Below the pieces are notes generated by a model. The model was not told the origin of the DNA. It searched no databases and saw only the letters and a list, made by a program, of their open reading frames with translations. From contig JAOUIA010000038.1 of the NCBI GenBank assembly GCA_029884335.1, forward strand, positions 1 through 34,681: 34,681 nucleotides of DNA, given 5' to 3'. The position numbers were made by a program, and so were the translations under genes. The stretch comes from Betaproteobacteria bacterium (lineage in GTDB: Bacteria; Pseudomonadota; Gammaproteobacteria; Burkholderiales; Casimicrobiaceae). How positions within the stretch are numbered: position 1 is the stretch's first letter; each line of letters opens with the position of its first letter. Shown here piece by piece: positions 10,494 to 25,704 of the stretch.

Positions 10494-11834
10494 CTACTCC
10501 AGTCCATAGGCCAGGCGGATCAGCGTCAGCGGGTGCTCCTTGCGCCCGCGCATCGCCTGCTCCTCGTTGATTCCCTGCGTGATGCGCCGCCCCGCGATCG
10601 GGCAGTCGGAGCTCACGAAGTCGGGCTCGGTCTCCGCCATGCGCCGGAACACCGGCTTGCCGATCTTCATCGAGTGGGCGAAGAACTCCTTCTTCACGCC
10701 GTAGGTGCCGTCGTGGCCCGCACAGCGCTCGACGGTGTTCACGGTCGTCTCCGGCACCCACTCGAGGACCTCGCGCGTCTTCTGGCCGACGTTCTGCACG
10801 CGCGAGTGGCACGGGATGTGGTAGCTGACCTTGCCGAGCGGCCGCTTGAAGTCCTTCTTCAGCAACCCGTCCTTGTCGCGCGCCACGAGGTACTCGAACG
10901 GATCGAACATCGCCTCGGCGACCGCCTTCACGTCCGCGTCCCCGGGGAAGATGAGCGGCAGTTCCTGCTTGAACATCAGCGTGCACGACGGCACGGGAGT
11001 CAGGAACGCGTAGCCGGCGCGCGCCAGCGGGGCAAGTTGCGCGATGTTCGCGTCCTTGAGCTTCTCGACGGTCTCGAGGTCCCCGAGCTCGAGCTTCGGC
11101 ATGCCGCAGCACGACTCGCTGGGCGCAATCGCGTAGGGGATCTCGTTGTGCTCGAGGATCAGCGCCAGGTCGCGGCCGATCCCCGGCTCGTTGTAGTTGA
11201 CGTAGCAGGTCGAGAAGATCGCGACCTTGCCGGGCGTGCGCTGGCCATCGCGCACGGGCCAGCCGAGCGAGGGCTTCATCCCCTTGCGGAACGTCGTTCC
11301 CGCGTACGGCGGCAGCGCGGCCGCCTTCGCGACGCCGAGCACCTTCTCCATGGCGCTTCGCGTGACCGGCGTACGGTTCGCCCAGTTGACCGTCTGCACG
11401 ACGACGGGAATCGTCGCGAGCTTGCCCAGCCGGTCGGTCGAGGTCAGGAGGCGGTCGCGGAAGCTCGCGCCTTCCTTGCGGAACTTCACGGCCTTCGCGC
11501 GCAGCATCAGGTGCGGGAAGTCGAGGTTCCACGGGTGCGGCGGCACGTACGGGCACTTCGTCATGTAGCAGACGTCGCACAGGTAGCAGTGGTCGACGAC
11601 CTTGGCGTAGTCGGCCTTGTCCACCCCGTCGACCTCGCCCGTCTTGCCCTCGTCGACCAGGTCGAACAGCGTGGGAAACGACTGGCACAGGCTGACGCAG
11701 CGGCGGCAGCCGTGGCAGATGTCGAACACCCGCTCCATCTCCTTGTGGAGCGCGGCCTCGTCGTAGAACTCGGGGTTGCGCCAGTCGAGCGGATGGCGCG
11801 TGGGGGCTTCGAGACTGCCTTCGCGGGTCGTCAT
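10494..11834 (-). CDS. Fe-S oxidoreductase with two [4Fe-4S] and CCG domains (HdrD/GlpC-like)
   Basis: The protein is 446 aa. The N-terminus binds two [4Fe-4S] clusters through Cys40/43/46/50 ([11 protein letters not shown]) and Cys83/86/89/94 ([12 protein letters not shown]). Two cysteine-rich CCG-type domains follow: one around [16 protein letters not shown] and [13 protein letters not shown], the second around [11 protein letters not shown] and [11 protein letters not shown]. This architecture is shared with heterodisulfide reductase subunit D, GlpC and DsrK, where CCG domains bind a catalytic Fe-S cofactor or pass electrons. The second domain reads RCAGHDG where many have CCG, which may alter its cofactor. 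With DUF3501 and rubrerythrin it may form a peroxide or oxygen-responsive electron path; the donor is not evident. Confidence 0.88.
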
Positions 11835-12895: not shown

Positions 12896-13123
12896 GTGGA
12901 TTTCGACAAGGAACTGGACGCCCGCGGGCTGTCGTGCCCGCTGCCGATCCTGAAGACGAAGATCGCCCTGAACGGCATGACCTCGGGGCAGGTGCTGAAG
13001 GTCGTCTCCACCGACGCGGGCTCGGTCAAGGACATGGAGGCATTCGCCAACCAGACCGGCAACCCGCTGCTCTCCTCAGGCCAGGAGAACAAGGAGTTCG
13101 TGTTCCACATCAGGAAGAAGTAG
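12896..13123 (+). CDS. tusA: TusA family sulfur carrier protein
   Basis: The 75-aa single-domain protein has the TusA signature LDARGLSCPLPILKTK, with the CPxP cysteine at position 14 carrying the persulfide. In sulfur oxidisers TusA receives sulfane sulfur, often from a rhodanese, and hands it to DsrE-type proteins and on toward DsrEFH/DsrC. It has only one cysteine, unlike the double-domain TusA encoded at 20371-20859. The start is GTG with a strong GAGGAGGA ribosome site. It is followed after 56 bp by dsrE2, the usual partner in the rhd-tusA-dsrE2 arrangement of purple sulfur bacteria; no rhodanese gene is seen here. Confidence 0.92.
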   Translation: MDFDKELDARGLSCPLPILKTKIALNGMTSGQVLKVVSTDAGSVKDMEAFANQTGNPLLSSGQENKEFVFHIRKK

Positions 13124-13179
13124 CCCTCGCGCGGCGCGCGACACCCTGACTCTGCCGAACGGATGCCGGAGGACCAACG

Positions 13180-13818
13180 ATGGACACGCACGTTGAGACG
13201 ACAACCGGGATCGCCGCTGGCGAGGCCCTCGACCGTGCCATAAGCGAGCGCATCGATGCCCTGCTCGAACGCAGGCTCGAGGCGAAGCTCGCCGAGATCG
13301 AGGCGGCGAGGACGCCGTCGATGACGATCATCGCCACCAAGGGCACGCTCGACTGGGCGTACCCGCCGTTCATCCTGGCGTCGACCGGCGCCGCGCTCGG
13401 ATGGGACGTCTCGGTCTTCTTCACGTTCTACGGGCTCGAGCTGCTGAAGAAGGACCTGAGCAAGCTCAAGGTGAGCCCGCTCGGCAACCCGGCGATGCCG
13501 ATGAAGATGCCGATGGGCCCGGCGTGGTTCAAGTCCATCCAGTGGAACATCCCGAACGCCGTGCAGTCGATCATCCCGGCGTACGAGCACTTCGCCACGA
13601 AGATGATGAAGAAGACGATCAGGAACCAGGGCGTGGCCCCGATCGCCGACCTCCGCGCCATGTGCCTCGAGGCCGGCGTCAAGCTGATCGCCTGCCAGAT
13701 GACCGTCGACCTCTTCGGCTACAGGCACAACCAGTTCATCCCCGAGGTCAAGGACTTCGTGGGCGCGGCGAGCTTCCTGCCGATCGCCAAGGACGCCGAC
13801 GTCAGCCTCTTCATCTGA
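13180..13818 (+). CDS. dsrE2: DsrE2-type sulfurtransferase/peroxiredoxin-like protein
   Basis: The 212-aa DsrE-fold protein begins with an alpha-helical, charged N-terminal region (residues 15-45, possible coiled coil). The core starts at MTIIATKGTLDWAYPPFILAS. Conserved features include the hydrophobic, methionine-rich NPAMPMKMPMGP loop and the cysteine pair Cys162 and Cys172 in MCLEAGVKLIACQMTVDLFG, which is characteristic of DsrE2. DsrE2 proteins are thought to be membrane-associated and to exchange sulfane sulfur with TusA. The gene follows tusA closely and has its own GGAGG ribosome site. A FadL-like outer-membrane gene follows 19 bp later, which points to one operon for uptake and handling of reduced sulfur. 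Confidence 0.88.
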   Translation: MDTHVETTTGIAAGEALDRAISERIDALLERRLEAKLAEIEAARTPSMTIIATKGTLDWAYPPFILASTGAALGWDVSVFFTFYGLELLKKDLSKLKVSPLGNPAMPMKMPMGPAWFKSIQWNIPNAVQSIIPAYEHFATKMMKKTIRNQGVAPIADLRAMCLEAGVKLIACQMTVDLFGYRHNQFIPEVKDFVGAASFLPIAKDADVSLFI

Positions 13819-13837
13819 GAACGCGAGGGACGCAGAC

Positions 13838-15184
13838 ATGAGAACGAGACTGCTTGGTGGATTGCTGATCGCGGCCGCGCCGCTGGCCGCGCAGGCCACC
13901 GACGGCTACTTCGCGCACGGCTACGGCATGAAAGCCCTCGGCATGGGCGGGGCCGCCGTTTCGGTCGCGCAGGAGCCCTTCGGCGGGGCGATCAACCCCG
14001 GCGCGATGTCGTTCCTCGGCAACGAGTGGCAGGCGGGGCTCGCGTGGTTCAGCCCGCGGCGCGACGCGTCGCGCACCGGCTCCGGGCCGGCGGGAATCGA
14101 CGGCAGCATCGAGAGCGGCAGCGAGAACTTCTTCATTCCCGAGTTCGGCGTGAACTGGAAGTACCGCCCCGACCTCGCGTTCGGCCTGACGATGACCGGC
14201 AACGGCGGGATGAACACCGACTACCCGGGCGGGCAGATCTCCAACCAGAGCGCGTGCACGGCGTTCTGGCAGAACAACCCGGTCGGGCCCTACAACATGC
14301 TGTGCGGCCAGGGGCAGCTCGGCGTGGACATGATGCAGCTGCTGATCGCGCCCTACGTCTCGTGGCAGTTCACTAAGGGCCACTCGGTCGGCATCGCGCC
14401 GGTGATCGCCTACCAGCGCTTTTCCATGGAGGGCATGCAGCTGTTCGACAACCCGGTGTTCTCCACGAGCCCGGGCAACGTCACCAACAAGGGCCACGAC
14501 GACGGCTGGGGTGTGGGCGTGCGCGTCGGCTACATGGGTCAGCTGACCGACCAGTTCGCGGTGGGGATCGCCTACGCGAGCAAGATCCCCATGAGCGAGT
14601 TCGACAAGTACAAGGGGCTGTTCGCGGAGAGCGGCGGCTTCGACATCCCGTCGAACTTCACCGTCGGCTTCGCGTGGCGACCCGTGCCGCAATTCCTCGT
14701 CGCCGTCGACTACCAGAAGATCTACTACGAAGACGCGAACTCGGTGAACAACCCGAGTGCCTGGATCGGCCGCTGCGTTCCGCCGCAGATGGGCGGGCTC
14801 GGCCAGCGGGAGTTCTGCCTCGGCGGCAGCAGCGGCGCCGGCTTCGGCTGGCAGAACGTCGACGTCTGGAAGGTGGGCCTGCAGTACGACATCAACGAGC
14901 GCTGGACGGTGCGCGCAGGCTACAACCACACCGACAACCCGATCGGGCCGCAGGACGTCACGTTCAACATCATCGCCCCCGGCGTGGTCACCGACCACTA
15001 CACGGTGGGCGCGACGTGGCGCATCGACCGGCAGTCGGAGATCACCGGCTTCTTCATGTACGCCCCGGAGGACTCGGTGACGGGCACCAGCCTGTTCGCG
15101 GGCTTCGGGCTGCCGCCGACGACCACCGAGACGATACGCATGAAGCAGTACGAGCTCGGGATCGCCTACAACCGCAAGTTCTGA
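13838..15184 (+). CDS. OmpP1/FadL/TodX family outer-membrane channel
   Basis: The 448-aa precursor has a signal peptide cleaved after AQA (residue 20), leaving TDGYFAHGYGMKALGMGGA. That is the typical FadL N-terminal hatch, including the NPG-type motif INPGAMSFLG. The rest alternates short beta strands and glycine/aromatic turns and ends in an aromatic residue (NRKF), as in 14-stranded barrels. FadL proteins pass hydrophobic molecules across the outer membrane. The position directly after tusA-dsrE2 suggests the cargo is a hydrophobic sulfur species and not fatty acid; this is inference from context. Four cysteines, unusual in barrels, lie in presumed loops (around NQSACTAFW, NMLCGQ, GRCVPPQ and EFCLGG). 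Confidence 0.88.
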   Translation: MRTRLLGGLLIAAAPLAAQATDGYFAHGYGMKALGMGGAAVSVAQEPFGGAINPGAMSFLGNEWQAGLAWFSPRRDASRTGSGPAGIDGSIESGSENFFIPEFGVNWKYRPDLAFGLTMTGNGGMNTDYPGGQISNQSACTAFWQNNPVGPYNMLCGQGQLGVDMMQLLIAPYVSWQFTKGHSVGIAPVIAYQRFSMEGMQLFDNPVFSTSPGNVTNKGHDDGWGVGVRVGYMGQLTDQFAVGIAYASKIPMSEFDKYKGLFAESGGFDIPSNFTVGFAWRPVPQFLVAVDYQKIYYEDANSVNNPSAWIGRCVPPQMGGLGQREFCLGGSSGAGFGWQNVDVWKVGLQYDINERWTVRAGYNHTDNPIGPQDVTFNIIAPGVVTDHYTVGATWRIDRQSEITGFFMYAPEDSVTGTSLFAGFGLPPTTTETIRMKQYELGIAYNRKF

Positions 15185-15206
15185 TCGCAGCGGGCCCACG
15201 CCCCGG

Positions 15207-15238
15207 CCCCTCTCCCGCCTGACGGCGGGAGAGAGGGG
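15207..15238. terminator. GC-rich hairpin between convergent genes
   Basis: CCCCTCTCCCGCC pairs with GGCGGGAGAGAGGGG around a short loop, with a two-base bulge. It follows the FadL-like stop codon and precedes the end of the minus-strand operon at 15243, so it probably ends both transcripts. There is no real T tract. Confidence 0.6.
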
Positions 15239-15242
15239 AACG

Positions 15243-16286
15243 CTAGCGCAGCGTGGCGGCGGCGAACTCGGCCTCGGTGGCGGCGATGCCGGCCGCGCCC
15301 TGCGCGGAGTGCAGCTCGACGGCGCGCTCGCACATCGCCTGCCAGTGCGGGACGCCGCGCGATGCGCAGGCCGCGACGGCCTCGTCATCGCCGGCGAGCC
15401 ACGCGGAGTAGGCGTCCGCCAGCGCGGGGAAGAGATCCTCGCGCAGCCCCTCGAAGTTCGCGAACCAGAAGTGCAGCGACGCCGGGTCCTCGCGCGCCGC
15501 AAGCGCCGGCAGCGTGACGAGGCAGTCGGCGAGAAGGTCGCGCGCGGCGCGCAGCGGCCACTCGGCCCGGGTGCCGGAAGCCGCCGCGAGGACGTCGTGC
15601 CAGCCGGCTCCGAGCCGCGCGGACGCCGCGTGCTCGCCGAGCTCGTGCAGCACCAGCGTCTCCGCCTCGCCGGCGGCGATGCGATCGATCCCGCGCACCG
15701 GGTCGTCACCGACGCCGTAGGCGAGGAGCGCGCGGCGCATCGGGCCGTCGACCGGCCGGTGCAAGTGGGTCTCGAGCCTGCCGCCGATCCAGCGGCGCAG
15801 CGCGTCGTGGCGCAGGTAGACGGTGTCGCCGCGCAGCGCGGCGGGGGCGGGTGCGAGGTCGCGCGCGATCTCGCTGCCGGCCCGGAGGATGCGGACGCCG
15901 CCGCGTCGCTCGTCGCCGGCGAGTTCGGCGAGGAAGAACTGCGGCTTGCCGAGCCTCCCCACCCCCGCGCCATACACGTAGCCCTGCGGCGCCAGCGCCG
16001 CGTTCGCCGTCTCGGCGTCGAACGGATCCACGTCGCTGCCGCCGATCGGCAGCACCGCGTAGCCCCGCTCGTCGAGCCCCGCCCACAGCGCCTCGCGCTC
16101 GGCGAGCCACGCGCCGACCGCGCCCTTCACCAGCGCGCCGCCGGGAGCCAATCCCCGCTCCCAGCGATACAGCTCGCGCATCTCGAGCAGGTAGGTGCAC
16201 AGCGTGAGGTCGCGGGCGTGGCGCGCGTCGGAGACGTGGCAGTTGGCCTGCACCGTCCGGGCCAGCGCCGCGATCTCGGGCGTCAC
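15243..16286 (-). CDS. Uncharacterised protein resembling the Sfum_1244 family
   Basis: The 347-aa soluble protein has no recognised catalytic motif. Its N-terminus (ARTVQANCHVSDARHARDLTLC, in part, then YLLEMRELYRWERGL) and the segment YVYGAGVGRLGKPQFFLAEL match my memory of the Sfum_1244 group of conserved hypotheticals found in sulfur-metabolising bacteria; I could not verify this by search. Two histidine pairs (ETHLHRP and LVLHELGEH) might bind a metal; HELGEH recalls a zinc HExxH motif with an extra residue, so protease activity is not claimed. The start is GTG, overlapping the stop of the preceding gene (GTGA). It is the last gene of the ten-gene minus-strand set. Confidence 0.7.
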   Translation of the reverse strand: MTPEIAALARTVQANCHVSDARHARDLTLCTYLLEMRELYRWERGLAPGGALVKGAVGAWLAEREALWAGLDERGYAVLPIGGSDVDPFDAETANAALAPQGYVYGAGVGRLGKPQFFLAELAGDERRGGVRILRAGSEIARDLAPAPAALRGDTVYLRHDALRRWIGGRLETHLHRPVDGPMRRALLAYGVGDDPVRGIDRIAAGEAETLVLHELGEHAASARLGAGWHDVLAAASGTRAEWPLRAARDLLADCLVTLPALAAREDPASLHFWFANFEGLREDLFPALADAYSAWLAGDDEAVAACASRGVPHWQAMCERAVELHSAQGAAGIAATEAEFAAATLR

Positions 16287-16735
16287 GTCCGCTCGTCCCT
16301 TGCACGCCGCCGCGGCCGCCAGGCCGCGACGGCCCGCGCGATCGCCTCCCAGGGCAGCCCCGCGAGGCCGCCGAACCGCTCTTGCGCAGCGACGACCATG
16401 CGGTGAACGTCCCCGTCCGTGGCGCCAAGCGCTCCGCGCACGCCGTCGAGCCCGCCGCACTGCACCCTCATCGCCGTCGCGTGCGACGGCGGTTCGCCGC
16501 GCCGCGCCCGGCCGAGCGAGAACGCGCAGCGCTCGAAGATCATCGCGTGCAGCGTCGCGCAATTCATGCCCGCGACCGCGCGCGTGCACGCCACGCGCTC
16601 GCCCTCGCCGAACGTGCGCCTGCGGGCGAGTTCGCAGGCCGCGTGGCCGGCGAACAGCGCGTGGGCGAACGCGCACGGCAGTTCCGCGGCCTCGGGCAAG
16701 CCGCTGCTCTCGTCGCGATGCTCCGGGCGCTGCAC
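16283..16735 (-). CDS. Uncharacterised conserved protein, 150 aa
   Basis: I do not recognise a named domain. The protein has an FAHALFAGHAACELARRR segment, a short basic stretch, then VACTRAVAGMNCATLHAMIFERCAF with three cysteines, and a fourth cysteine in RVQCGGLDG. Cysteines and histidines are spaced as they might be for a metal or Fe-S site. The start is GTG at 16735, and its TGA overlaps the GTG of the next gene, so translation is coupled. The gene lies 18 bp after the 74-aa gene. Conservation next to dsr genes in other sulfur oxidisers is my expectation but is untested. Confidence 0.65.
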   Translation of the reverse strand: MQRPEHRDESSGLPEAAELPCAFAHALFAGHAACELARRRTFGEGERVACTRAVAGMNCATLHAMIFERCAFSLGRARRGEPPSHATAMRVQCGGLDGVRGALGATDGDVHRMVVAAQERFGGLAGLPWEAIARAVAAWRPRRRARDERT

Positions 16736-16753
16736 CGTATCCCGGGACCCGCG

Positions 16754-16978
16754 CTACTCGTCGCCGGCGAGGCCCGGCGGGCGCTCGCGGACCTGGCTCA
16801 GCAGGTCCTCCGCCGCCAGCTCGTTGTCGGCGAAGATCACCTTGACGGCGCAGCGCTCCGGCAGGTCGGGCGATGCGCGCAGCGACTTCGCCAGCGCCGA
16901 CGCATCGCCGAAGACCGACCGCTCCGCGACCTTCTCGAGGCGGCGCAGCGGGAATACGCGGTAGACGTAGTAGGGCAC
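16754..16978 (-). CDS. Small uncharacterised protein, 74 aa
   Basis: The sequence starts at GTG with MPYYVYRVFPLRRLEKVAER, continues FGDASALAKSLRASPDLPERCAVKVIFADNELAAEDLL (in part), and ends acidic (AGDE). It looks like a compact alpha/beta protein of about 75 residues with one cysteine. A longer frame upstream to 17143 would overlap the S24-like gene heavily and encodes only arginine-rich shadow sequence, so the GTG is preferred. No function is proposed. It is embedded in the minus-strand operon between the S24-like gene and the 150-aa gene. Confidence 0.65.
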   Translation of the reverse strand: MPYYVYRVFPLRRLEKVAERSVFGDASALAKSLRASPDLPERCAVKVIFADNELAAEDLLSQVRERPPGLAGDE

Positions 16979-17013
16979 GGGGCAACCTCGGAAATCGGGA
17001 CTCGCTCGGGGCG

Positions 17014-17370
17014 TCACTCGACGTAGCGCTTGCGCTCGCGCCGCCGCCCCGGCTTGCTCCTCTGGATGACGACGCCGCGCACGGCCGCCAGGTCGGCCAG
17101 CGCGCGCTCCGGATACGCGGGATTGAGCGCGGCGAGGCGCCACGCGCCAGGGCCGCCCCGCAACTGCCGCAGCACGACGTCCTCCTCGACCTCAACGATC
17201 ACGAACGAGCCGTCGGCGGCGAGACCCTCGGGCTCGACCACGACCACGTCGCCCTCGACGAACTCGGGCGCCATGCTGTCGCCGAGCACCAGCAGCGCGA
17301 ACGGCTCCGCGCCGCTGCAGTCGCCGCCCGGCGCGGCAGGCGCGATCGGGATCGTCCGGCGCTCGCTCAC
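17014..17370 (-). CDS. LexA/S24-like protein, catalytic lysine replaced
   Basis: The 118-aa protein consists of only the C-terminal LexA-type fold. Ser32 in LGDSMAPEFVEGDVVVVEP matches the catalytic serine region of S24 peptidases. In the strand that normally carries the catalytic lysine (VTVKRL in LexA), the sequence is VVLRQL, so arginine or leucine stands there. Self-cleavage is therefore doubtful, and the protein may keep the fold for binding. There is no DNA-binding domain. Its GTG start overlaps the stop of the HTH-ferredoxin reductase gene (GTGA, 17367-17370), hinting that the two work together and that the HTH of that neighbour supplies DNA binding. The basic tail (RRRERKRYVE) is notable. 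Confidence 0.75.
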   Translation of the reverse strand: MSERRTIPIAPAAPGGDCSGAEPFALLVLGDSMAPEFVEGDVVVVEPEGLAADGSFVIVEVEEDVVLRQLRGGPGAWRLAALNPAYPERALADLAAVRGVVIQRSKPGRRRERKRYVE

Positions 17371-18827
17371 GAGCGGATGCGCGCGGCGGGAACGCCGCGC
17401 CCGGCGAGTTCCGCGGCGGCGCGCGCGACGAACTCCGCCGGCCCGGCGAGGTAGTAGTCGCTGTCCGGCGGCGGCGCGGCGTCGGTCAGCGCCTCGAGCA
17501 ATCCCGCGGTGCCGCGCGCGAGGTCGGCGTCGGCGTGCGCGACGTAGCGGAACGCGTCGATCGAGTCGGCCCAGGCGCGGCACTGGTTGGCGAGGTAGTG
17601 GCCGTCGGGTCGCGTGGCGAGCCAGCCGAGCACGATCGACTCCGCGGAGTCCGCGGCCATCGCGTGCTCGATCAGGCTGCGGATCGGCGCGAAGCCGGTG
17701 TCGCAGGCGAGGAACGCGAGCGGCCGCGCGGCGTCGGCCAGGGTGAACGCGCCGATCGGCCCGCGCAGGTTGAGCAGGTCGCCGGCGCGGATCGCGCCGG
17801 CGAACAGCCGGGAAGCGAGCGCATCGCCGTCGTCGCGCGCGACGTGGAAGTGCAGGTTGCGGTCGTCGCAGGGACAACTCGCCACCGGGTAGGTCGCCGC
17901 GGCATCCTGGCCGCCCGGGCTCGCCCCGAGCGTCACGCTCTGCCCGGCGAGGAAGCGCAGGCGCTGCGCGCGCGGCGTCTGCACGTGCAGCAGCAGCGTG
18001 TCCGGCGCGAGCGGGCTGACCGCGCGTACGCGCACGGCGAGGTCCTGCGCCGCGATGTCCTCGGGTCCCCGCGCCTCCAGCGTCTCCAGCACGATCTCCG
18101 CGGACGCGGCCGCATGGGCGCACAGCAGCGTGTGGCCCTGCTGCCGCTCGGCCTCCGACAGCGGGTAGTCGCACGGCGCGACGCGCACGACCTCCCCGGC
18201 GACCACGCGCGCCTTGCACAGGCCGCAGCTGCCGTTGCCGCAGCCGTAATCGAGCTTGAGCCCCGCGCGGAGGCCCGCCTGCAGCAGCGTCTCGCGGCCC
18301 TCGACGAGGAATTCGCGGCCGCTGGGGCGCACGACGACGCGCGCGGAGAGGAGCTTGAGAAGGTCGTCCATGACGGTGATGTCGTCGGCGGCGTCGGTGG
18401 CGAGCACGTCGGCGAGCCCGCGCTCGAGGCCCTCGGCGAGCTCGCGCGCCTCCGGCGACCCGCTCGCGTCCGCCCACGCGGACGCCTGCGCCTGCGTCGC
18501 CACGACCAGCGAATGGTAACGCTGCAGCAGCCGCCGCGCGTCGGTCAGCTCGCGGCTGTGCTCGTAGAGCCGCTGCGCCAGCACCTCCTGCGACGGCAGC
18601 GTGCGCTCCTGGACGCGGCGGCCGAACGCGGCCTCCTTGATGCGCGCCACGCGCTCGAAGGCTCCCGACGACTCGAGGTCGAGGCTCGGATACAGGCGCG
18701 CCAGGTCAGCGGCCTCCACCTGGCCGTCGCTGGACGGCAGCAGGCCCTCGCGGATCTGCCTCTGCAGCACGCCGCGCGACACGCCGGCGAGCCGCGCCGC
18801 GCGCGACAAGGAGAGCACGTGTCCCAT
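17367..18827 (-). CDS. HTH + [2Fe-2S] ferredoxin + flavin reductase fusion
   Basis: The 486-aa fusion begins with a helix-turn-helix of the MerR/excisionase kind (residues 3-45: LSRAARLAGVSRGVLQRQI then EAADLARLYPSL). A helical linker spans about 55-160. A plant-type [2Fe-2S] domain follows, with Cys196, Cys201, Cys204 and Cys236 (CGNGSCGLC and LLC). An FAD/NAD(P) reductase module runs from about 255 to 486, with TYPVAS in the flavin region and ACDTGFAPIRSL and YYLAGPAEF in the nucleotide region. The usual RxYS arginine and the C-terminal cysteine are replaced. Electron-transfer domains with a DNA-binding head suggest a redox- or NAD(P)H-responsive regulator. An alternative is an enzyme that merely kept a protein-binding HTH. 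Confidence 0.85.
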   Translation of the reverse strand: MGHVLSLSRAARLAGVSRGVLQRQIREGLLPSSDGQVEAADLARLYPSLDLESSGAFERVARIKEAAFGRRVQERTLPSQEVLAQRLYEHSRELTDARRLLQRYHSLVVATQAQASAWADASGSPEARELAEGLERGLADVLATDAADDITVMDDLLKLLSARVVVRPSGREFLVEGRETLLQAGLRAGLKLDYGCGNGSCGLCKARVVAGEVVRVAPCDYPLSEAERQQGHTLLCAHAAASAEIVLETLEARGPEDIAAQDLAVRVRAVSPLAPDTLLLHVQTPRAQRLRFLAGQSVTLGASPGGQDAAATYPVASCPCDDRNLHFHVARDDGDALASRLFAGAIRAGDLLNLRGPIGAFTLADAARPLAFLACDTGFAPIRSLIEHAMAADSAESIVLGWLATRPDGHYLANQCRAWADSIDAFRYVAHADADLARGTAGLLEALTDAAPPPDSDYYLAGPAEFVARAAAELAGRGVPAARIRS

Positions 18828-18836
18828 CGCGCGCCT

Positions 18837-19748
18837 TCAGCCGCCGACGCGGTCGTGGTAGCGCGCGCGGTAGAGCAGGCGCGGCCGCGACGGCGCGTCG
18901 ACGAAACCGTCGCGACGGTGCAGCACGTTGTTGCACACGATGCCCATGCCCGGTCGCAGCGCGACCTCGAGGCGGAACGGCGACGGCGCGTCGAGCAGCG
19001 CTTCCAGCGCGGCCACGGCGGCGAGCACGTCGGGCGATGCCAGCCAGGCGATGCTGCGCGTGCGCGCCGTGTAGCGCATGCCGAGGCAGCCCGTGGCGGG
19101 GTCGACGTCGAACACCGGGCCGCTCGTCGCGGGGCGGGCCGTCCCTTCCCCGCCCTCGCGCGCGGGCACGGTCATCGCGTCCGCGCGCATCAGCGCGCGG
19201 ACGTGGCGCGGATCGGCGTCGCGCAAGCGAAGGTACGCGATCTCGTGGTCCATGAACGCGTTGGCGCCGCCCTCCTCCGCGCTCGCCACGCAGTGCAGGA
19301 TCATGCCGCGGATGCGCCGCGGCGCGTCGTTGTAATAGCCGTCGGTGTGCCAGCGGATCGGGCGGTCCGTGTAGGGGATGTAGTCGGAGCGCTCGGCCAC
19401 GCGCTCGGTCGCGACGCGGATCGGGCTGATGCCGTCGTCGTCGGCGAGCCAGTTGCGGTCCAGCCGCGTGAGGCCGAGCTGCTCGCCCAGCCGCCGCGGG
19501 ATCGACTTGTCGGCGTCGACCGCGCCCGACACGTAGATCGCCATGTTCGCGCGCCGGCAGCGGTCGAGCAGCGCCTCGCGCTCGCCGGGCGTCAGCGCCC
19601 GCGGGTCGCGCACCTCGACCGTGTGCCCCGCGAGCCCTTCCGGGTACGCGGCGAGCTTCGCCTCGCGCCACGCCGCGTAGGCCGCGCCGGCGCCGGGATC
19701 GAACGGCCCTCCCGCGACGACGTCCCGCTGCGCAGTCACCGCGCCCAC
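18837..19748 (-). CDS. TauD/TfdA-type Fe(II)/2-oxoglutarate dioxygenase
   Basis: The 303-aa protein has the jelly-roll dioxygenase iron triad: His134 and Asp136 in RWHTDGYYND, and His277 in NNVLHRRDGF, followed by arginines at 288 and 290, one of which would hold 2-oxoglutarate. Family members hydroxylate taurine, sulfonates, aryloxy acids or carnitine precursors, releasing succinate and CO2. The substrate here is unknown. The setting, between a double-TusA gene and a ferredoxin-reductase fusion beside dsrA, suggests an organosulfur compound or a regulatory small molecule. The start is GTG at 19748, and the gaps to neighbours are 4 and 9 bp. It needs oxygen, which is notable beside genes often expressed at low oxygen. 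Confidence 0.87.
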   Translation of the reverse strand: MGAVTAQRDVVAGGPFDPGAGAAYAAWREAKLAAYPEGLAGHTVEVRDPRALTPGEREALLDRCRRANMAIYVSGAVDADKSIPRRLGEQLGLTRLDRNWLADDDGISPIRVATERVAERSDYIPYTDRPIRWHTDGYYNDAPRRIRGMILHCVASAEEGGANAFMDHEIAYLRLRDADPRHVRALMRADAMTVPAREGGEGTARPATSGPVFDVDPATGCLGMRYTARTRSIAWLASPDVLAAVAALEALLDAPSPFRLEVALRPGMGIVCNNVLHRRDGFVDAPSRPRLLYRARYHDRVGG

Positions 19749-19752
19749 CGCC

Positions 19753-20352
19753 TCACTCGCCCGACATCGTGCGCTGGCGCCGCGGCTCGCGCGGGGACTC
19801 GTCGAGCAGCCCCGCCATCGCGCGCTCGAGCAGCTCGGCGGCCTCGGGCGCCTCGACGTCGATCACCTGCGACACCGCCCACGTGCGTTCGCTCTCGTCC
19901 ATGACGTCGGCGACGCGATGGCCGAGGTAGCGCAGCAACGGGTAGTCGGGACCGGCGTCGTCCCAGGCGAACGCAGCGCACTCGGCCGCCCGCTCGTTGA
20001 CCAGCGCCACGAAGCGCCGCTTGATATCCTCCGCCGACGCGCTGGCGAGCAGGTCGGACTCGTTCTCGGCGAGGATCGCCCCCACCCGATTGGCCATTTC
20101 CGTGGTGAACTCGACGCGCCACGCGCCGTCGCGGCGCCGGTAGGCGATGCGGTCGGCGCCGACGACGAGGAACGCCAGGAGCTCGGCGAGGAAGTCGAAG
20201 TAGCCCGCTCCGGCCGCGAGCTCGAAGCGCGCCCCGCGCATCCGCTTGAGCGCGTTCTGCGCCACGCGCCAGGCGATGAACGCGGCGGCGCCGGCGACCT
20301 CGGTCGCGCCCTTGGCGCTGCCGGCCTTGAACCAGTTGCTCTTGACGCGCAT
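19753..20352 (-). CDS. Uncharacterised protein, 199 aa
   Basis: I do not recognise the family. The first third is helical and alanine-rich (AKGATEVAGAAAFIAWRVAQ and NALKRM), and the segment FDFLAELLAFLVVGADRIAYRRR is hydrophobic but interrupted by charges. The C-terminal third is acidic and ends with an arginine-rich tail (PREPRRQRTMSGE). One cysteine is present. There is no signal peptide or clear membrane span. The ATG at 20352 has a purine-rich GAGAGGCGGGA upstream. It sits 18 bp after the double-TusA gene and 4 bp before the dioxygenase gene, so it belongs to the operon. Confidence 0.65.
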   Translation of the reverse strand: MRVKSNWFKAGSAKGATEVAGAAAFIAWRVAQNALKRMRGARFELAAGAGYFDFLAELLAFLVVGADRIAYRRRDGAWRVEFTTEMANRVGAILAENESDLLASASAEDIKRRFVALVNERAAECAAFAWDDAGPDYPLLRYLGHRVADVMDESERTWAVSQVIDVEAPEAAELLERAMAGLLDESPREPRRQRTMSGE

Positions 20353-20370
20353 GCCGCGGCGTCCCGCCTC

Positions 20371-20859
20371 TCAGCGGCGGGCGAGGAAGAACGCGAACTC
20401 GCCCGGCGCGACCTCCTCGCTCGCGCGGAGCTCGACGCCGGTGGCCTTCGCCCAATCCGCGACGTCGGTCTCGATGCCCGGGCAGTTGCTGACGAGCTCC
20501 AGCGTCTCGCCGGGACGCATGCCGGCGAGCAGCTTCTTCGCCTCGACGATGGGGCCGGGACAGACGACGCCGCGCAGGTCGAGCACCGCGCTCGGCACCG
20601 GGCGCGGCGCGCGGCCGCGCCGCAGGTGATAGGCGCTGCCGCCGTCCGGCAGCCGCTCCGTCTTCACGACCTCGTTGCCGGTCCACTTCGCCCACGCGAA
20701 CAGGTCGTCCGCCGTGCCGGGGCAGTCGGAGAGCAGCACCAGCGTCTCGCCCGGCTTGAGGTCGTCGACGATCTTCTTCGCGCCGAGCAGCGGCGCGGGG
20801 CAGCGTGTCCCGCGCATGTCCAGCGTGGGATGCGCGGCCCGCCCGGTGATCTCGCTCAC
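20371..20859 (-). CDS. Tandem double-TusA sulfurtransferase
   Basis: The 162-aa protein is two TusA domains in a row (residues about 10-80 and 90-160). Each has the CPxP cysteine (Cys20 in RGTRCPAPLL; Cys100 in RGVVCPGPIV) and, 26 residues later, a second cysteine (Cys46 in LLSDCPGTADD; Cys126 in LVSNCPGIETD). The second cysteine is absent from the TusA encoded at 12896. Two pairs with identical spacing suggest persulfide relay or disulfide exchange within one chain. The GTG start at 20859 has a good GGGAGAAAG ribosome site. It is separated by 94 bp from the Cmx6-like gene upstream and has no recognisable promoter there. Confidence 0.9.
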   Translation of the reverse strand: MSEITGRAAHPTLDMRGTRCPAPLLGAKKIVDDLKPGETLVLLSDCPGTADDLFAWAKWTGNEVVKTERLPDGGSAYHLRRGRAPRPVPSAVLDLRGVVCPGPIVEAKKLLAGMRPGETLELVSNCPGIETDVADWAKATGVELRASEEVAPGEFAFFLARR

Positions 20860-20953
20860 GTTCTTTCTCCCGCCCGAAGGCGCCGTCCGAAGGATAGTCG
20901 GGAATCTCCGCGTGCGGCCACTTCCGAAGCAACCGACGCCGTCGCCGTTCCGG

Positions 20954-21601
20954 TCACGCGATCGCCTTCGCCGGCACGAACAGGCCCCAGCCGAGCGCCC
21001 GCTCGCCGCCCAGTCCCAGCGCCTGCACCACGAGCGAGTCGTCGGGCTGCAGTCCGTGCAGCGCGAGGCTGAAGCCCGCGATCGTGCGCGATCCCGCGCC
21101 TGCCGCGCGCCGGCGACCCGAGATGAAACCGCAATCGACGCCGATTTCCGCGAGTGCGGCGCGCGCGGAGCGCTCGAAGCCCTCGACGTCCGCCTGACCG
21201 AACGTCACGGCCCCCGCGGCGAGCGTGGCGCTCGCGCGCAGCGGCCGCGTCCGGCCCTCGCCGAGATCAAGCCGGCTGCCGGAAACGTCCAGCGCACAGC
21301 CTCCCAGCGCCAGCACTGCGCTCACGCGCGCCTCCGGCACCCGCAGCACGAGCTTCGCCCGCTGCGCGAGCAGGGCCACGCCGTAGTCGGTCGCGTTCGT
21401 GCGCAGCGGGTGGATGCCGCTCCCCGGCTCTGCGCCGAACCAGGCCAGCCGCGCCCGGACGGCGTCGAGCAGCGCGAGCGGATGATCGGCCGGCAGGCTG
21501 CCGCCGCCCAGCGGGAAGGCCACGTCGACGACGCGGATATCCTCCCGCCGCGCGCCCGCGCGCTCGCGCGCTCGCCTTGCCTCCGCGCCCGCCGGGGCCA
21601 T
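20954..21601 (-). CDS. Cas6/Cmx6-like RAMP protein, stand-alone
   Basis: The 215-aa protein resembles the Cas6/Cmx6 group described from type I-MYXAN CRISPR systems. It has VVDVAFPLGGGSLPADHPLAL followed by SGIHPLR, a middle LGGCALDVSGSRLDLGEG, SGRRR at 161-165, and a C-terminal glycine-rich RAMP loop, ALGLGGERALGWGLFVPAK (residues 194-212). His40, His64 and His182 are possible catalytic residues if it cleaves RNA. An N-terminal 20-residue arginine/alanine stretch lies before the conserved part, so the true start could be internal. There is no CRISPR array and no other cas gene in the window. It starts 3 bp after the 80-aa gene, firmly inside the dsr-linked operon. A function outside CRISPR immunity is inferred. 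Confidence 0.75.
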   Translation of the reverse strand: MAPAGAEARRARERAGARREDIRVVDVAFPLGGGSLPADHPLALLDAVRARLAWFGAEPGSGIHPLRTNATDYGVALLAQRAKLVLRVPEARVSAVLALGGCALDVSGSRLDLGEGRTRPLRASATLAAGAVTFGQADVEGFERSARAALAEIGVDCGFISGRRRAAGAGSRTIAGFSLALHGLQPDDSLVVQALGLGGERALGWGLFVPAKAIA

Positions 21602-21604
21602 CGC

Positions 21605-21847
21605 TCAGTCCCTGCCCCCGACGGCGACTCCCGCCCCGCCGCGCTGCGCCTCGCCCCAGCGCCGCATCGCCTCGCCCCAGGCGACCGCCGTCTGCGGGTC
21701 GATGTCGAACACCGTGAAGCGGCTGCGCTCGCGGATGCGGACGCGCAGCAGCGCCATCCCGCCGCCGTCGTGCTCCACCTGCTGCAGCGCGATCTCCTCA
21801 CCGCCCAGGGGGCTGCGGATCTGCTGCAGCGTCGTTGTCGTGGCCAT
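21605..21847 (-). CDS. Small uncharacterised protein, 80 aa, first gene of the minus-strand operon
   Basis: The protein starts MATTTTLQQIRSPLGGEEIALQQVEHDGG, continues with MALLRVRIRERSRFTVFDIDP and an amphipathic helix (AVAWGEAMRRWGEAQRGG). It looks like a compact beta-rich fold plus one helix, without cysteines. I cannot assign a family. A GTGGAGC purine-rich stretch lies before the ATG. Translation is probably coupled to the Cmx6-like gene 3 bp downstream. The gene starts 248 bp from dsrA in the opposite direction, so the two operons share a regulatory region. Confidence 0.65.
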   Translation of the reverse strand: MATTTTLQQIRSPLGGEEIALQQVEHDGGGMALLRVRIRERSRFTVFDIDPQTAVAWGEAMRRWGEAQRGGAGVAVGGRD

Positions 21848-22095
21848 CGTTGTGCTCCACACTTGCCGTAACCGCCGCGCGCCTCCGGCACGCCCGGTCA
21901 TTGAGCGAGCGCAGCAAGGCGCAGTCCATAGCCGATGCGGGTGATGGACCGTACCCCATCCGGGTAATTCCCGATCACGCCCTCGGGGCTTATTCACATA
22001 GCCTTGGCGAGTGATGGCGCGACCTTCGCCCGCCGCCTAGCATAGACGCCGTCCCGCCCGGACCCACAAGCCCGCTGCAGACAAGGAGCAAGCCG
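21848..22095. promoter_or_regulatory. Divergent control region between the minus-strand operon and dsrA
   Basis: The 248-bp spacer contains TACCC-CATCC-GGGTA (21952-21966), a perfect 5-bp inverted repeat, preceded by GGGT at 21939-21942 (with the base before it). The segment 21939-21964 resembles the one upstream of tusA (12749-12775). A GTGAT/ATCAC pair also flanks part of it. No consensus sigma-70 promoter stands out, which fits dependence on an activator. A good Shine-Dalgarno (AAGGAGCAAG) precedes the dsrA ATG. Confidence 0.5.
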
Positions 22096-23394
22096 ATGGC
22101 CAAGCCCATGCACCCGACCCCGATGCTCGACAAGCTCGAGAGCGGCCCCTGGCCCAGCTTCGTCACGGGGCTCAAGCGTCTGGCGAAGGACAAGGACTAC
22201 ATGGTCGACCTGCTCGGCCAGCTCGAGCACTCGTACAAGACCCGCAAGGGCTACTGGAAGGGCGGCACGGTCGGCGTGTTCGGCTACGGCGGCGGCGTGA
22301 TCCCGCGCTTCACCGAAGCGAAGGACGAGGCGGGCAAGCCGCTGTTTCCCGACGCCGCCGAGTTCCACACGCTGCGCGTGATGCCGCCGGCCGGCATGCA
22401 CTACAACACCGCGATCCTGCGCAAGCTCGCCGACATCTGGGAAAAGCACGGCTCCGGCCTGATCGCGTTCCACGGCCAGTCGGGCGACATCATGTTCCAG
22501 GGCGCGACCACCGAGAACGTGCAGAAGGCGTTCGACGAGATCAACGCGGCGGGCTTCGACCTCGGCGGCGCCGGCCCGGCGGTGCGCACGTCGATGTCCT
22601 GCGTCGGCGCCGCGCGCTGCGAGCAGTCGTGCTACGACGAGGCCTCCGCGCACCGCGCGGTGATCAACAGCTTCCTCGACGACATCCACCGCCCCTCGCT
22701 GCCCTACAAGTTCAAGTTCAAGTTCAGCGGCTGCCCGAACGACTGCATGAACTCGATCCAGCGCGCCGACATGGCCATCATCGGGACGTGGCGCGACGAC
22801 ATCCGCAGCGACGAGGCGCTGGCGCGCAAGTGGTTCGCGAAGCACGGCATGAACGAGCTGGTCAATGACGTCGTCGCGCGCTGCCCGACCAAGGCGATCC
22901 AGCTGAAGGAGGTCAAGGACCTCGAGGCCGCCCCGGGCGTCACGACGGTCGCGGTGAGCGACACGCACGGGCTCGCGATCGACAACCGCGACTGCGTGCG
23001 CTGCATGCACTGCATCAACGTGATGACCGGCGCGCTCGCGCCCGGCGTGGACAAGGGCGCCACGATCCTGGTCGGCGGCAAGCGCACGCTGAAGATCGGC
23101 GACCTGATGGGCACGGTGGTCGTGCCGTTCATGAAGCTCGCCACCGACGAGGACCGCGAGAAGCTGGTCGAACTGGGCCAGAAGATCATCGACTTCTTCG
23201 CCGAGAACGCGCTGGAGCACGAGCGCACGGGCGAGATGATCGAGCGCATCGGCCTGGTCAACTTCCTCGACGCGCTCGGCATCGAGGTCGACGCGAACAT
23301 GGTCGCCTCGCCGCGCACGAACCCCTACGTCCGCACCGACGGCTGGGACGAGGAAGTGGCGAAGATCAACGCGCGCAAGCACAAGGCCGCCTGA
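22096..23394 (+). CDS. dsrA: Reverse dissimilatory sulfite reductase alpha subunit
   Basis: The 432-aa DsrA carries the sirohaem-[4Fe-4S] ligands Cys169-x5-Cys175 (SCVGAARC) and Cys213-x3-Cys217 (SGCPNDC). The inserted ferredoxin domain uses Cys263 (ARCP) with Cys300, Cys303 and Cys306 (CVRCMHC). With DsrB it forms the cytoplasmic alpha2beta2 enzyme that in sulfur oxidisers turns DsrC-bound sulfane sulfur into sulfite. The oxidative direction is inferred from the presence of dsrEFH and dsrL and the absence of dsrD, and not from the sequence of DsrA alone. It is the first gene of the dsr operon; dsrB follows after 11 bp. Confidence 0.98.
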   Translation: MAKPMHPTPMLDKLESGPWPSFVTGLKRLAKDKDYMVDLLGQLEHSYKTRKGYWKGGTVGVFGYGGGVIPRFTEAKDEAGKPLFPDAAEFHTLRVMPPAGMHYNTAILRKLADIWEKHGSGLIAFHGQSGDIMFQGATTENVQKAFDEINAAGFDLGGAGPAVRTSMSCVGAARCEQSCYDEASAHRAVINSFLDDIHRPSLPYKFKFKFSGCPNDCMNSIQRADMAIIGTWRDDIRSDEALARKWFAKHGMNELVNDVVARCPTKAIQLKEVKDLEAAPGVTTVAVSDTHGLAIDNRDCVRCMHCINVMTGALAPGVDKGATILVGGKRTLKIGDLMGTVVVPFMKLATDEDREKLVELGQKIIDFFAENALEHERTGEMIERIGLVNFLDALGIEVDANMVASPRTNPYVRTDGWDEEVAKINARKHKAA

Positions 23395-23405
23395 GGGAGC
23401 ACGCG

Positions 23406-24482
23406 ATGAGCCAACCGCAGATGCGCCGGGCGATCGAGAGCGGCGTCCCCGACAACAAGCAGTTCCTGCACCCGCTGCTCGCGAAGAACTACGGCAACTG
23501 GAAGTGGCACGACCGGCCGCGCCCCGGCGTGCTGCACCACGTCGCGAACTCCGGCGACGAGGTGTGGACGGTGCGCGCCGGCACGCAGCGGCAGATGGAC
23601 GTCCACACGATCCGCAAGCTGTGCGACATCGCCGACAGGTACGCCGAGGGCCACGTGCGCTTCACCATCCGCTCGAACATCGAGTTCATGGTGTCGAGCC
23701 AGGCGAAGGTGGGCCCGCTGGTCGAGGCGCTCGAGTCGTCCGGCTTCCCGGTCGGCGGCACCGGCAACTCGGTGTCGATGATCGCCCACACGCAGGGCTG
23801 GCTGCACTGCGACATCCCCGGCACCGACGCCTCCGGCGCGGTGAAGGCGCTGATGGACGAGCTGATCGTCGAGTTCCGGCGCGAGGAGATGCCCAACCGC
23901 GTGCACCTGTCGACGTCGTGCTGCGAGATCAACTGCGGCGGCCAGGCCGACATCGCGATCATCGTGCAGCACACCAAGCCGCCGAAGATCAACCACGACC
24001 TCGTCGCCAACGTCTGCGAGCGACCGGCCGTCGTCGCGCGCTGCCCGGTGGCCGCGATCCGCCCGGCGCTGGTCAACGGCAAGCCCTCGCTCGAGGTCGA
24101 CGAGAAGAAGTGCATCTGCTGCGGCGCCTGCTACCCGCCCTGCCCGCCGATGCAGATCAACGATCCCGAGCACAGCAAGCTCGCGATCTGGGTCGGCGGC
24201 AAGAACTCGAACGCGCGCGCCAAGCCGACGTTCATGAAGATGGTCGCCTCCGGGTTGCCGAACAACCCGCCGCGCTGGCCGGAGGTCACGGTCGTGGTCA
24301 AGAAGATCCTCGCCGTCTACAAGGAGGACGCGCGGCCGTGGGAGCGCCTCTCGGACTGGGTCGAGCGCATCGGCTGGCCGCGCTTCTTCGAGAAGACCGA
24401 CCTGCCGTTCACCAAGTACCTGATCGACGACTGGCGCGGGGCGCGGGCGAACCTGAACGCGTCGACGCACATCCGCTTCTGA
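23406..24482 (+). CDS. dsrB: Reverse dissimilatory sulfite reductase beta subunit
   Basis: The 358-aa DsrB has Cys135, Cys172, Cys173 and Cys177 (LHCDIPG and STSCCEINCGGQ), with the spacing of the active-site ligands in known DsrB. The ferredoxin domain has Cys213 (ARCP) and Cys236, Cys239 and Cys242 in KKCICCGACYPPCPP. DsrB carries the catalytically active sirohaem in characterised enzymes. A GGGAGCAC ribosome site in the 11-bp gap after dsrA serves its ATG. It is followed by a 123-bp gap holding a palindromic repeat before dsrE, which may limit read-through and favour independent dosage of dsrAB. Confidence 0.98.
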   Translation: MSQPQMRRAIESGVPDNKQFLHPLLAKNYGNWKWHDRPRPGVLHHVANSGDEVWTVRAGTQRQMDVHTIRKLCDIADRYAEGHVRFTIRSNIEFMVSSQAKVGPLVEALESSGFPVGGTGNSVSMIAHTQGWLHCDIPGTDASGAVKALMDELIVEFRREEMPNRVHLSTSCCEINCGGQADIAIIVQHTKPPKINHDLVANVCERPAVVARCPVAAIRPALVNGKPSLEVDEKKCICCGACYPPCPPMQINDPEHSKLAIWVGGKNSNARAKPTFMKMVASGLPNNPPRWPEVTVVVKKILAVYKEDARPWERLSDWVERIGWPRFFEKTDLPFTKYLIDDWRGARANLNASTHIRF

Positions 24483-24509
24483 TGCGCCGGCGCGGGGCAC
24501 GACGCCTGT

Positions 24510-24578
24510 CGGTCATCCCCGCGACGGCGGGGATCCAGCGACGTCCGTGGAAAGACGCTGGATTCCCGCTGGCGCCGG
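24510..24578. repeat. Palindromic repeat between dsrB and dsrE
   Basis: The left part GTCATCCCCGCGACGGCGGG is itself a hairpin. GGGGATCCAGCG pairs with CGCTGGATTCCC about 20 bp later, making a larger fold. It belongs to the same GTC..CCCCGC..GCGGGG family as the copies at 4509, 26046 and 33015, but is diverged. Confidence 0.7.
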
Positions 24579-24605
24579 AGTGAAGACGCGGAAATGGAGC
24601 GACCG

Positions 24606-24965
24606 ATGAAGTTCGGCATCCTGGTCAACGAAGGCCCCTACCAGCACCAGGCCGGCGACTCCGCCTACCTGTTCTGCAAGGCGGCGCTGGCGAAGGGCCA
24701 CGAGATCCACCGCGTGTTCTTCTACCACGACGGCGTCAACAACTCGTCGCGGCTGACCGAGCCGCCGCAGGACGACCGCAACGTCGTCGCGCGCTGGTCG
24801 AAGCTCGCCGCGGACCACGGCGTCGACCTCGTCGTCTGCGTGGCGGCGGCGCTGCGCCGCGGCATCAAGGACGAGAACCTCGCGCCCGGCTTCCGCATCT
24901 CGGGCCTCGGGCAGCTGGTCGAGTCGGCGATAGGCGCCGACCGGCTGGTCGTGTTCGGCGACTGA
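24606..24965 (+). CDS. dsrE: DsrE, sulfur transfer subunit
   Basis: The 119-aa protein has the DsrE/TusD fold and opens MKFGILVNEGPYQHQAGDSA. The persulfide-carrying cysteine is Cys78 in VDLVVCVAAALRRG, at the same residue number as the active cysteine of Allochromatium DsrE. DsrE joins DsrF and DsrH in a heterohexamer that donates sulfur to DsrC. A start at 24594 is possible but would add only four residues; the ATG at 24606 matches the family. The gene begins the EFHC block after the repeat-bearing gap. Confidence 0.97.
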   Translation: MKFGILVNEGPYQHQAGDSAYLFCKAALAKGHEIHRVFFYHDGVNNSSRLTEPPQDDRNVVARWSKLAADHGVDLVVCVAAALRRGIKDENLAPGFRISGLGQLVESAIGADRLVVFGD

Positions 24966-24978
24966 CGGAGGGCGCCCC

Positions 24979-25350
24979 GTGGCCGAAGGCACCACCAGGA
25001 AGGTGATGTTCGTCAACCGCACCGCCCCGTACGGGACCGTCTATGCGCTCGAGTCGCTGGAGGTCGTGCTGATCACCGCCGCCTTCGACCAGGACGTCTC
25101 GCTCGCGTTCATCGGCGACGGCGTGTGGCAGCTCAAGAAGGGACAGCAGACCAAGGGCATCGAGACGAAGAACTTCTCGCCCACCTACCGCGCGCTCGAG
25201 GGCTACGACATCGAGAAGCTGTACGTCGAGCGCGAGGCGCTCGCCGAGCGCGGCCTCGCCCCCGAGGACCTGGTCGTCGACGTCACGGTGCTGCCGGCCC
25301 GCGAGCTCGGCGCCCTGATGGACGGGCAGGACGTCATCCTGAGCTTCTGA
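24979..25350 (+). CDS. dsrF: DsrF, sulfur transfer subunit
   Basis: The 123-aa protein, equivalent to TusC, begins at GTG with a CGGAGGG ribosome site 7 bp upstream. It shows the DsrE-fold motifs KVMFVNRTAPYGTVYALESL and DVSLAFIGDGVWQLKKGQ. It has no cysteine, consistent with a structural role in the DsrEFH hexamer, where DsrE carries the active thiol. Gaps are 13 bp after dsrE and 5 bp before dsrH, so expression is coupled. Confidence 0.97.
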   Translation: MAEGTTRKVMFVNRTAPYGTVYALESLEVVLITAAFDQDVSLAFIGDGVWQLKKGQQTKGIETKNFSPTYRALEGYDIEKLYVEREALAERGLAPEDLVVDVTVLPARELGALMDGQDVILSF

Positions 25351-25355
25351 AGAAC

Positions 25356-25652: not shown

Positions 25653-25704
25653 CGGCCGTCCCGGGCCCGTCACCCCTCCCCTCCCATCGACCCTGGAGAA
25701 CCCC

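Follow-up and report, generated by a model that had tools for sequence, protein, structure and literature searches.

Reverse dissimilatory sulfite reductase (rDsr) is a main biological route of sulfur oxidation, although little is understood of how it is controlled. The window, by which we mean the whole stretch of 34,681 nucleotides analysed here (contig JAOUIA010000038.1, our contig C58, of the 120-contig, 3.66-Mb genome G000 of a betaproteobacterium), carries an rDsr cluster on its plus strand and, diverging from it, an operon of ten genes on its minus strand. The plus-strand cluster, of the same kind as the dsrABEFHCMKLJOPN(RS) cluster of sulfur oxidizers, includes dsrA (22096..23394; TIGR02064, 518.1 bits) and dsrB (23406..24482), the latter assigned from its place after dsrA together with a weak paralogous match to the dsrA model, and used as the dsrB query. 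Downstream are a pair of DsrE-family genes, then dsrC, then genes that by family and order are dsrM-, dsrK-, dsrP- and dsrN-like. The ten minus-strand open reading frames (ORFs), numbered g1 to g10 outward from dsrA, extend across 15243-21847; the gaps between them range from -4 to +94 bp, and several have GTG starts. A shared divergent control region of 248 bp (21848..22095) lies between the starts of g1 (21847) and dsrA (22096). The second gene of the operon, g2 (20954..21601; 215 aa), matches profiles for Cas6, and this is the gene that most constantly accompanies dsrA.

The linkage was examined in two samples defined by GTDB: the window's own class (Gammaproteobacteria, 274 genomes) and order (Burkholderiales, 300 genomes). 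In the class sample, Cas6 (PF09559) is present in 91 genomes, dsrA in 94 (87 over the cut-off plus 7 fragments of more than 100 bits), and both in 87. The order sample contains Cas6 in 58 genomes, dsrA in 64 (61 over the cut-off plus 3 fragments), and both in 58; Cas6 without dsrA occurs in 0 genomes. These dsrA counts are among the matches listed, from which weak fragments may be missing. Fisher's test yields p values of 1.9e-57 for the class and 1.4e-55 for the order, both of which take genomes as independent and ignore shared ancestry. Pooled, the samples hold 157 dsrA genomes, 144 of which have Cas6. Eleven class genomes are discordant (Cas6 without detected dsrA in 4, dsrA without Cas6 in 7), and most of these are assemblies of at least 90 contigs. 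The observed association is far beyond chance.

Cas6 and dsrA share a contig in 66 class genomes and fall on separate contigs in 21. In 65 of the 66 same-contig pairs the two genes are 0.6-4.5 kb apart, always divergent, with Cas6 upstream of dsrA; in the exception, G109, they are 41 kb apart. All 58 order pairs are likewise divergent with Cas6 upstream, at distances of 416-833 bp (55 pairs) or 2.0-5.0 kb (3 pairs). Orientation and place are therefore the same in 123 of 124 same-contig cases from both samples (G000 being counted twice), and these cases come from many families. Six genomes have two dsrA copies (G640, G753, G810, G739, G771 and G665); in each, a single Cas6 gene adjoins one of them.

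By sequence and predicted fold, g2 is a Cas6/Cmx6-family protein. It scores 133.1 bits against TIGR02807 (cas6_cmx6; curated cut-off, 98.85) and 157.4 bits against PF09559 (cut-off, 26.7; E 5.6e-46). A model predicted from 74 sequences has a mean predicted local distance difference test score (pLDDT) of 92.2. In a Foldseek search with this model the best match is 8fcu_B, the Cas6 of a type I-B CRISPR-associated transposon (CAST), at E 3.8e-16 and a template-modelling (TM) score of 0.81, and ranks 1-42 are all CRISPR Cas6 or Cascade entries. By sequence, g2 has one clear relative in the PDB, 8fcj_B (E 3.7e-8). The protein thus resembles type I-MYXAN and I-B Cas6 (Cmx6), including 8fcj and 8fcu, in family, predicted fold, glycine-rich loop and residue R87.

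Residue conservation was compared between 155 unique sequences, here called the dsr set (the PF09559 proteins from the loci that were fetched, also where dsrA is on another contig or was undetected), and six annotated cyanobacterial Cmx6 proteins. The latter come from eight cyanobacterial plasmid records in which relatives of g2 are annotated as type I-MYXAN Cas6; six were examined. Position H40 is histidine in 154 of the 155 and in all six Cmx6; R87 is invariant in both groups (155/155 and 6/6); and glycines G196, G198, G204 and G206 of the glycine-rich loop are kept in 149-153 of the dsr set and 6/6 Cmx6. Other positions set the groups apart: H64 (147/155 versus 0/6, although 8fcj_B has histidine there), R81 (155/155 versus 1/6), K212 (147/155 versus 0/6), and an NGW insert (148/155 versus 0/6). 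The g2 protein of the window retains H40, as do the six Cmx6, as well as H64, which it shares with 8fcj, R87 and the glycine-rich loop. It lacks the NGW insert found in most of the dsr set, as do its relatives in genomes G506, G479 and G530. In a tree, the dsr set and the six cyanobacterial proteins form separate clades with support of 0.992. Their surroundings differ too: cas3 adjoins the cyanobacterial gene in five of six cases, in one of which cas3, cas8, cas7 and cas5 are all present, whereas the dsr-linked Cas6 genes have dsr neighbours instead.

The remaining genes of the operon, all on the minus strand, are as follows. Gene g1 (21605..21847; 80 aa) encodes a DUF6967 protein (PF22295, E 2.7e-27). 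Two CPxP motifs and two PF01206 stretches mark g3 (20371..20859; 162 aa) as a double TusA. The product of g4 (19753..20352; 199 aa) is unnamed; its predicted model (pLDDT 92.9) is all-helical, with six helices, and has no significant match in the PDB (best E 0.36). A TauD-type 2-oxoglutarate/Fe(II) oxygenase is encoded by g5 (18837..19748; 303 aa; PF02668, E 8.4e-25). In g6 (17367..18827; 486 aa), a helix-turn-helix (HTH)-like amino terminus precedes a 2Fe-2S ferredoxin and an FAD/NAD reductase (Fer2, FAD_binding_6 and NAD_binding_1). Gene g7 (17014..17370; 118 aa; PF00717 Peptidase_S24, E 3.7e-16) has an S24/LexA-like fold without a DNA-binding domain. Next come g8 (16754..17017; 87 aa, or 74 aa from an alternative GTG at 16978) and g9 (16283..16735; 150 aa); like g4, they match no family in Pfam or NCBIfam. 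Last, g10 (15243..16286; 347 aa) belongs to the DUF6866/Sfum_1244 family, with the N and C domains PF21739 and PF21740, NF045620, and 375.5 bits against the NCBIfam Sfum_1244 family model.

An earlier note on this DNA, made from its letters, had described much of this arrangement. The ORF coordinates agree with its ten packed minus-strand genes (gaps of -4 to about 94 bp, GTG starts) diverging from dsrA across 248 bp, and profile matches agree with its double TusA, Cas6/Cmx6-like protein, 2-oxoglutarate oxygenase and LexA-like fold. Its DNA-binding ferredoxin reductase fusion is upheld for the Fer2, FAD and NAD domains; the HTH part rests on an HTH_17 match of E 0.032, under Pfam's cut-off. 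Five genes had been called unknown, which holds for function, but g1 and g10 belong to the named families DUF6967 and DUF6866. The serine motif of g7 is GDSM. Read by eye, the protein has arginine (in VVLRQL) at what we take to be the site of the LexA catalytic lysine, so self-cleavage is doubtful.

Which of these genes travel with Cas6 can be seen from the 91 class loci; the counts include the window's own locus and, because many loci end at contig edges, are lower bounds. An unnamed protein of 70 aa (c7) is encoded in 74 loci, a DsrC paralogue without the C-terminal cysteine in 66, and a TauD-type oxygenase in 66. Then come c12 (unnamed, 79 aa; 44 loci), g4 (37), c15 (unnamed, 242 aa; 34) and DUF6866 (33). 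Much rarer are S24 (5), DUF6967 (4), g6 (3) and double TusA (2), with g8 and g9 in the window only. The typical class order is c12, Cys-less DsrC, Cas6, (c15), c7, TauD, dsrA, from which the form in the window's order differs. Among the best 80 of 473 relatives, a set that includes Thiohalobacter, Thiogranum, Thioalkalivibrio, Thiothrix and Venteria, TauD is present in 73 loci, c7 in 75 and dsrA in 62. The active site of TauD looks intact by sequence: of 119 unique homologues, 115 have HTDG and 118 a distal N..LH-type histidine motif. The g5 protein shares both motifs with TauD/TfdA 2-oxoglutarate oxygenases, and differs from them in its recurrent place beside Cas6 and dsrA. Further 2-oxoglutarate/Fe(II) oxygenases occur near Cas6, namely the PKHD-type c11 (35 loci) and c16 (30 loci), and methionine sulfoxide reductase B (SelR, c24) lies near the module in 10 of the 91 loci (L046, L044, L092 and others).

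The DsrC paralogue, presumably the protein named RspA, merits separate mention. Of 123 DsrC-family ORFs in the class loci, 66 lack the C-terminal cysteine, ending mostly in KGGY, and in 65 of these 66 loci the gene is at most 5 kb from Cas6. The window has double TusA in that place. The nearest full operon, that of G506, runs DUF6967, Cas6, Cys-less DsrC, g4, TauD, g6, g7, g8, g9, DUF6866, with the Cys-less DsrC where the window has double TusA. In G479, DUF6967, Cas6, Cys-less DsrC, g4 and TauD stand beside dsrA, and DUF6866 is elsewhere; in G530, Cas6, Cys-less DsrC, g4 and TauD stand beside dsrA, and g6, g7, g8 and g9 occupy a remote stretch with DUF6866 within 10 kb. Homologues of g7, g8 and g9 are found in G506 and G530, and strong homologues of g6 in G506, G530 and G660.

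As judged from these arrangements, there is indeed a ten-gene operon with a tie to dsrA, but its gene content is not fixed. The accessory system envisaged in the earlier note survives in this form: near dsrA one repeatedly finds Cas6, TauD, g4 and DUF6866, joined within the order by DUF6967, but the ten genes, being split in G530 and G479, are no single conserved unit. Nor do Cas6 and DUF6866, the two genes surveyed for this, occur independently of each other and of rDsr: DUF6866 (DUF6866_N profile) is found in 63 of the 274 class genomes, 58 of which have dsrA and 60 Cas6. Passive hitchhiking, in which the genes are carried along with dsr and have no common role, would suit the variable gene content and the few relatives that have g6-g9. 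It is very improbable, given that place and orientation are all but constant across families and that residues are strictly conserved.

The control region contains an operator-like pseudo-palindrome of the ACCCC-GGGGT type, GTACCCCATCCGGGTAA (21939..21955, on neither strand in particular), which recurs upstream of dsrA. Allowing ATACCC-N2..8-GGGTAT with at least 10 of 12 matches, it is present in 67 of 113 unique dsrA-upstream regions, compared with 11.6 per 113 in first-order shuffles. We take it to resemble a CsoR/CstR operator. A CsoR/CstR protein was considered as its regulator and rejected: the sole family match in the genome adjoins an apparent copper-pump gene.

The most likely role, in our reading, is that of a lineage-specific module, accessory to rDsr or regulating it, whose Cas6 protein would bind RNA and perhaps cleave it. 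Tentatively, and at somewhat less than an even chance, we favor the view that the window holds a local form of the rDsr accessory operon of one sulfur-oxidizer class, in which Cas6 tunes rDsr at the RNA level. The mechanism that we infer would run as follows. The Cas6-like protein would bind a short RNA hairpin, probably cutting beside it. The target RNA would be one on which rDsr output depends, the simplest candidates being the dsr transcript and a small RNA. Partner proteins would set the timing: the O2-dependent 2-oxoglutarate oxygenase as the oxygen input, and as the sulfur-state input the DsrC paralogue without C-terminal cysteine in most lineages, or double TusA in the window. The outcome would be a costly enzyme system tuned at the RNA level by oxygen and sulfur state. 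A stronger version is doubtful: that a Cas6-family RNase, either drawn from CRISPR or of older shared origin, has become fixed class-wide as a dedicated rDsr RNA controller whose substrate is a hairpin within the dsr mRNA or within a small RNA, with the 2-oxoglutarate oxygenase gating it by oxygen and the dead DsrC or TusA by sulfur state.

Several observations weigh against RNA-level tuning; they concern the RNA target, the catalytic residue, the spread outside the class, Cas1, and operons without Cas6. The searches of leaders, intergenic stretches and Rfam found no RNA target for Cas6. The 105 dsrA leaders have no common hairpin (mean z about -0.5 at -98..-54, which does not outdo the rest of the region); because this profile gives no support, single leader hairpins seen by eye are not claimed. 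In a Thiogranum-like clade (10 dsrA leaders), one hairpin shows 4 doubly changed cells against a shuffle mean of 1.6, a count equalled or exceeded in 9 of 500 shuffles, and 3 doubly changed pairs, for which 47 of 500 shuffles are as high; this covariation is modest, and the element could also be a DNA operator. Of the other leader groups, B has no consensus hairpin, and C and D have weak ones. Folding of 123 cas6/Cys-less-DsrC intergenic stretches, some of which overran into the DsrC gene through the choice of start, gave no common hairpin by eye among those listed, and Rfam had no match within 13000-26000 of the window. The catalytic histidine is ambiguous, as the I-B CAST Cas6 of 8fcj has asparagine at the H40 site and histidine at the H64 site. 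Within the phylum as sampled, the association also stops at the class. In a phylum-wide spread of 329 genomes, Cas6 and DUF6866 were sought in the 51 with dsrA over the cut-off plus 2 fragment genomes: both are present in the 4 that belong to the class, and 0 of the 49 outside it (47 over the cut-off) have either.

The class sample has 91 genomes with Cas6; Cas1, sought in 80 of them, is found in 39. This result, together with membership of the type I-MYXAN Cas6 family, would be expected of a spare Cas6 that matures CRISPR RNA (crRNA) for arrays elsewhere in the genome. The other 41 of the 80, the window's genome included, are without Cas1; moreover, the gene keeps a fixed place beside dsrA, is almost never found without dsrA, and belongs to a clade apart from cyanobacterial Cmx6. 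A spare Cas6 is thus scarcely credible. Its surroundings were searched as well. Scans of the ten recurrent families of Cas6 neighbours found no cas family among them, and profile scans of the window's proteins found no cas genes beside g2. Exact array-like repeat runs occur in 4 of 179 loci, with one (L191) about 3 kb or less from Cas6. A separate curiosity is locus L226 of G706, where a 20-base repeat occurs three times, without mismatch, around the dsrA-dsrB junction (11377-11537). Defence was tried as a reading with PADLOC on eight of the ten proteins and dropped, the yield being Cas6 models for g2 plus one weak mad1 match for g6. The g2 Cas6 appears to stand outside CRISPR.

Operons without Cas6 were seen in the order, where three of the six dsrA genomes that lack Cas6 were examined. 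G660, from the window's family, has dsrA with DUF6967, double TusA, g4 and g6; G786 has dsrA with DUF6967, g4, TauD and a TusA-like gene; and G706 has dsrA with DUF6967, Cys-less DsrC, double TusA, g4 and TauD. As in the window, DUF6967 is the gene nearest dsrA in these three and in G506 and G479, and the window, G660 and G706 each have the double TusA gene diverging from dsrA. Since dsrA genomes such as these keep other operon genes, Cas6 is dispensable to the operon, even though no other partner accompanies dsrA as constantly.

This persistence of DUF6967, g4 and others also speaks for the main rival to RNA-level tuning: that the RNA role has been lost, and that the Cas6-like protein, with g4, DUF6967, TauD and the DsrC- or TusA-like proteins, forms a set for rDsr maturation, assembly or protection. 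The place beside dsrAB and the DsrC-like and TusA-like partners suit that role, and R81, K212 and the NGW insert, which distinguish the dsr group from CRISPR sequences, hint at an altered surface. Yet H40, R87 and the glycine-rich loop, common to the dsr set and cyanobacterial Cmx6, are strongly constrained, for which retained RNA contact is an easier explanation than a lost RNA role. In our estimation an assembly set is rather unlikely, though only moderately less likely than RNA-level tuning.

The same partners could instead serve RNA modification, for example of tRNA: TusA and DsrC/TusE homologues as sulfur carriers, a 2-oxoglutarate oxygenase and a Cas6 fold, sharing one operon or locus, would link sulfur supply to translation. 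However, the DsrC near Cas6 lacks the C-terminal cysteine in 65 of the 66 loci noted above, so sulfur carriage by those paralogues is not expected, and Pfam and NCBIfam searches of the ten operon genes showed no thiolation enzyme or methyltransferase. We regard this explanation as improbable.

The minus-strand operon lies outside the rDsr cluster as described in the accessible parts of five papers (PMC5728499, PMC5944118, PMC10504309, PMC5024460 and PMC3368242), which list DsrC paralogues and no dsr-linked Cas6. In the open-license papers that turn up for Cas6/Cmx6 together with dsr and contain Cas6, the portions available treat it as a CRISPR gene and draw no link to dsr (PMC5728499, PMC5944118, PMC10952691 and PMC5109826). 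A dsr synteny study (PMC10504309) uses neither 'Cas6' nor 'CRISPR' in the main text, as far as that text was available. For stand-alone or Cas6-like proteins, the open-license titles among the matches listed concern CRISPR or unrelated matters. Extra dsrC genes just outside the dsr cluster are on record in the available parts of two of these papers: SVA_1949 and SCL_1279, five tags from dsrA (PMC5024460), and THSYN_22565 (PMC5944118). From locus numbering in these partial sources, we infer that the three are the Cys-less paralogue of the Cas6 operon. Work cited in the accessible part of PMC5944118 has Allochromatium DsrC binding DNA upstream of dsr.

A Cas6 gene nearly as constant as dsr in one class, and annotated as CRISPR, appears to have been overlooked; when a sulfur oxidizer yields a Cas6 match, this should not be taken as a sign of CRISPR. 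The association hints that RNA handling may help to run the energy pathway of sulfur oxidation, and raises a testable question: why does an RNA-cutting fold accompany an energy enzyme?

Two observations concern the periphery of the locus. To the left of the minus-strand operon, the plus strand carries a DsrE2-type gene (PF13686; 13180-13818). Another contig of G000, C60 (L210, 114-1666), has near its start a second DsrC-like gene without a C-terminal cysteine; downstream of it comes an apparent IscA/DsrR-like gene, then one for an apparent siroheme-type methyltransferase, both named by eye. The window's contig ends right after the dsrN-like gene, and it and C60 may adjoin.

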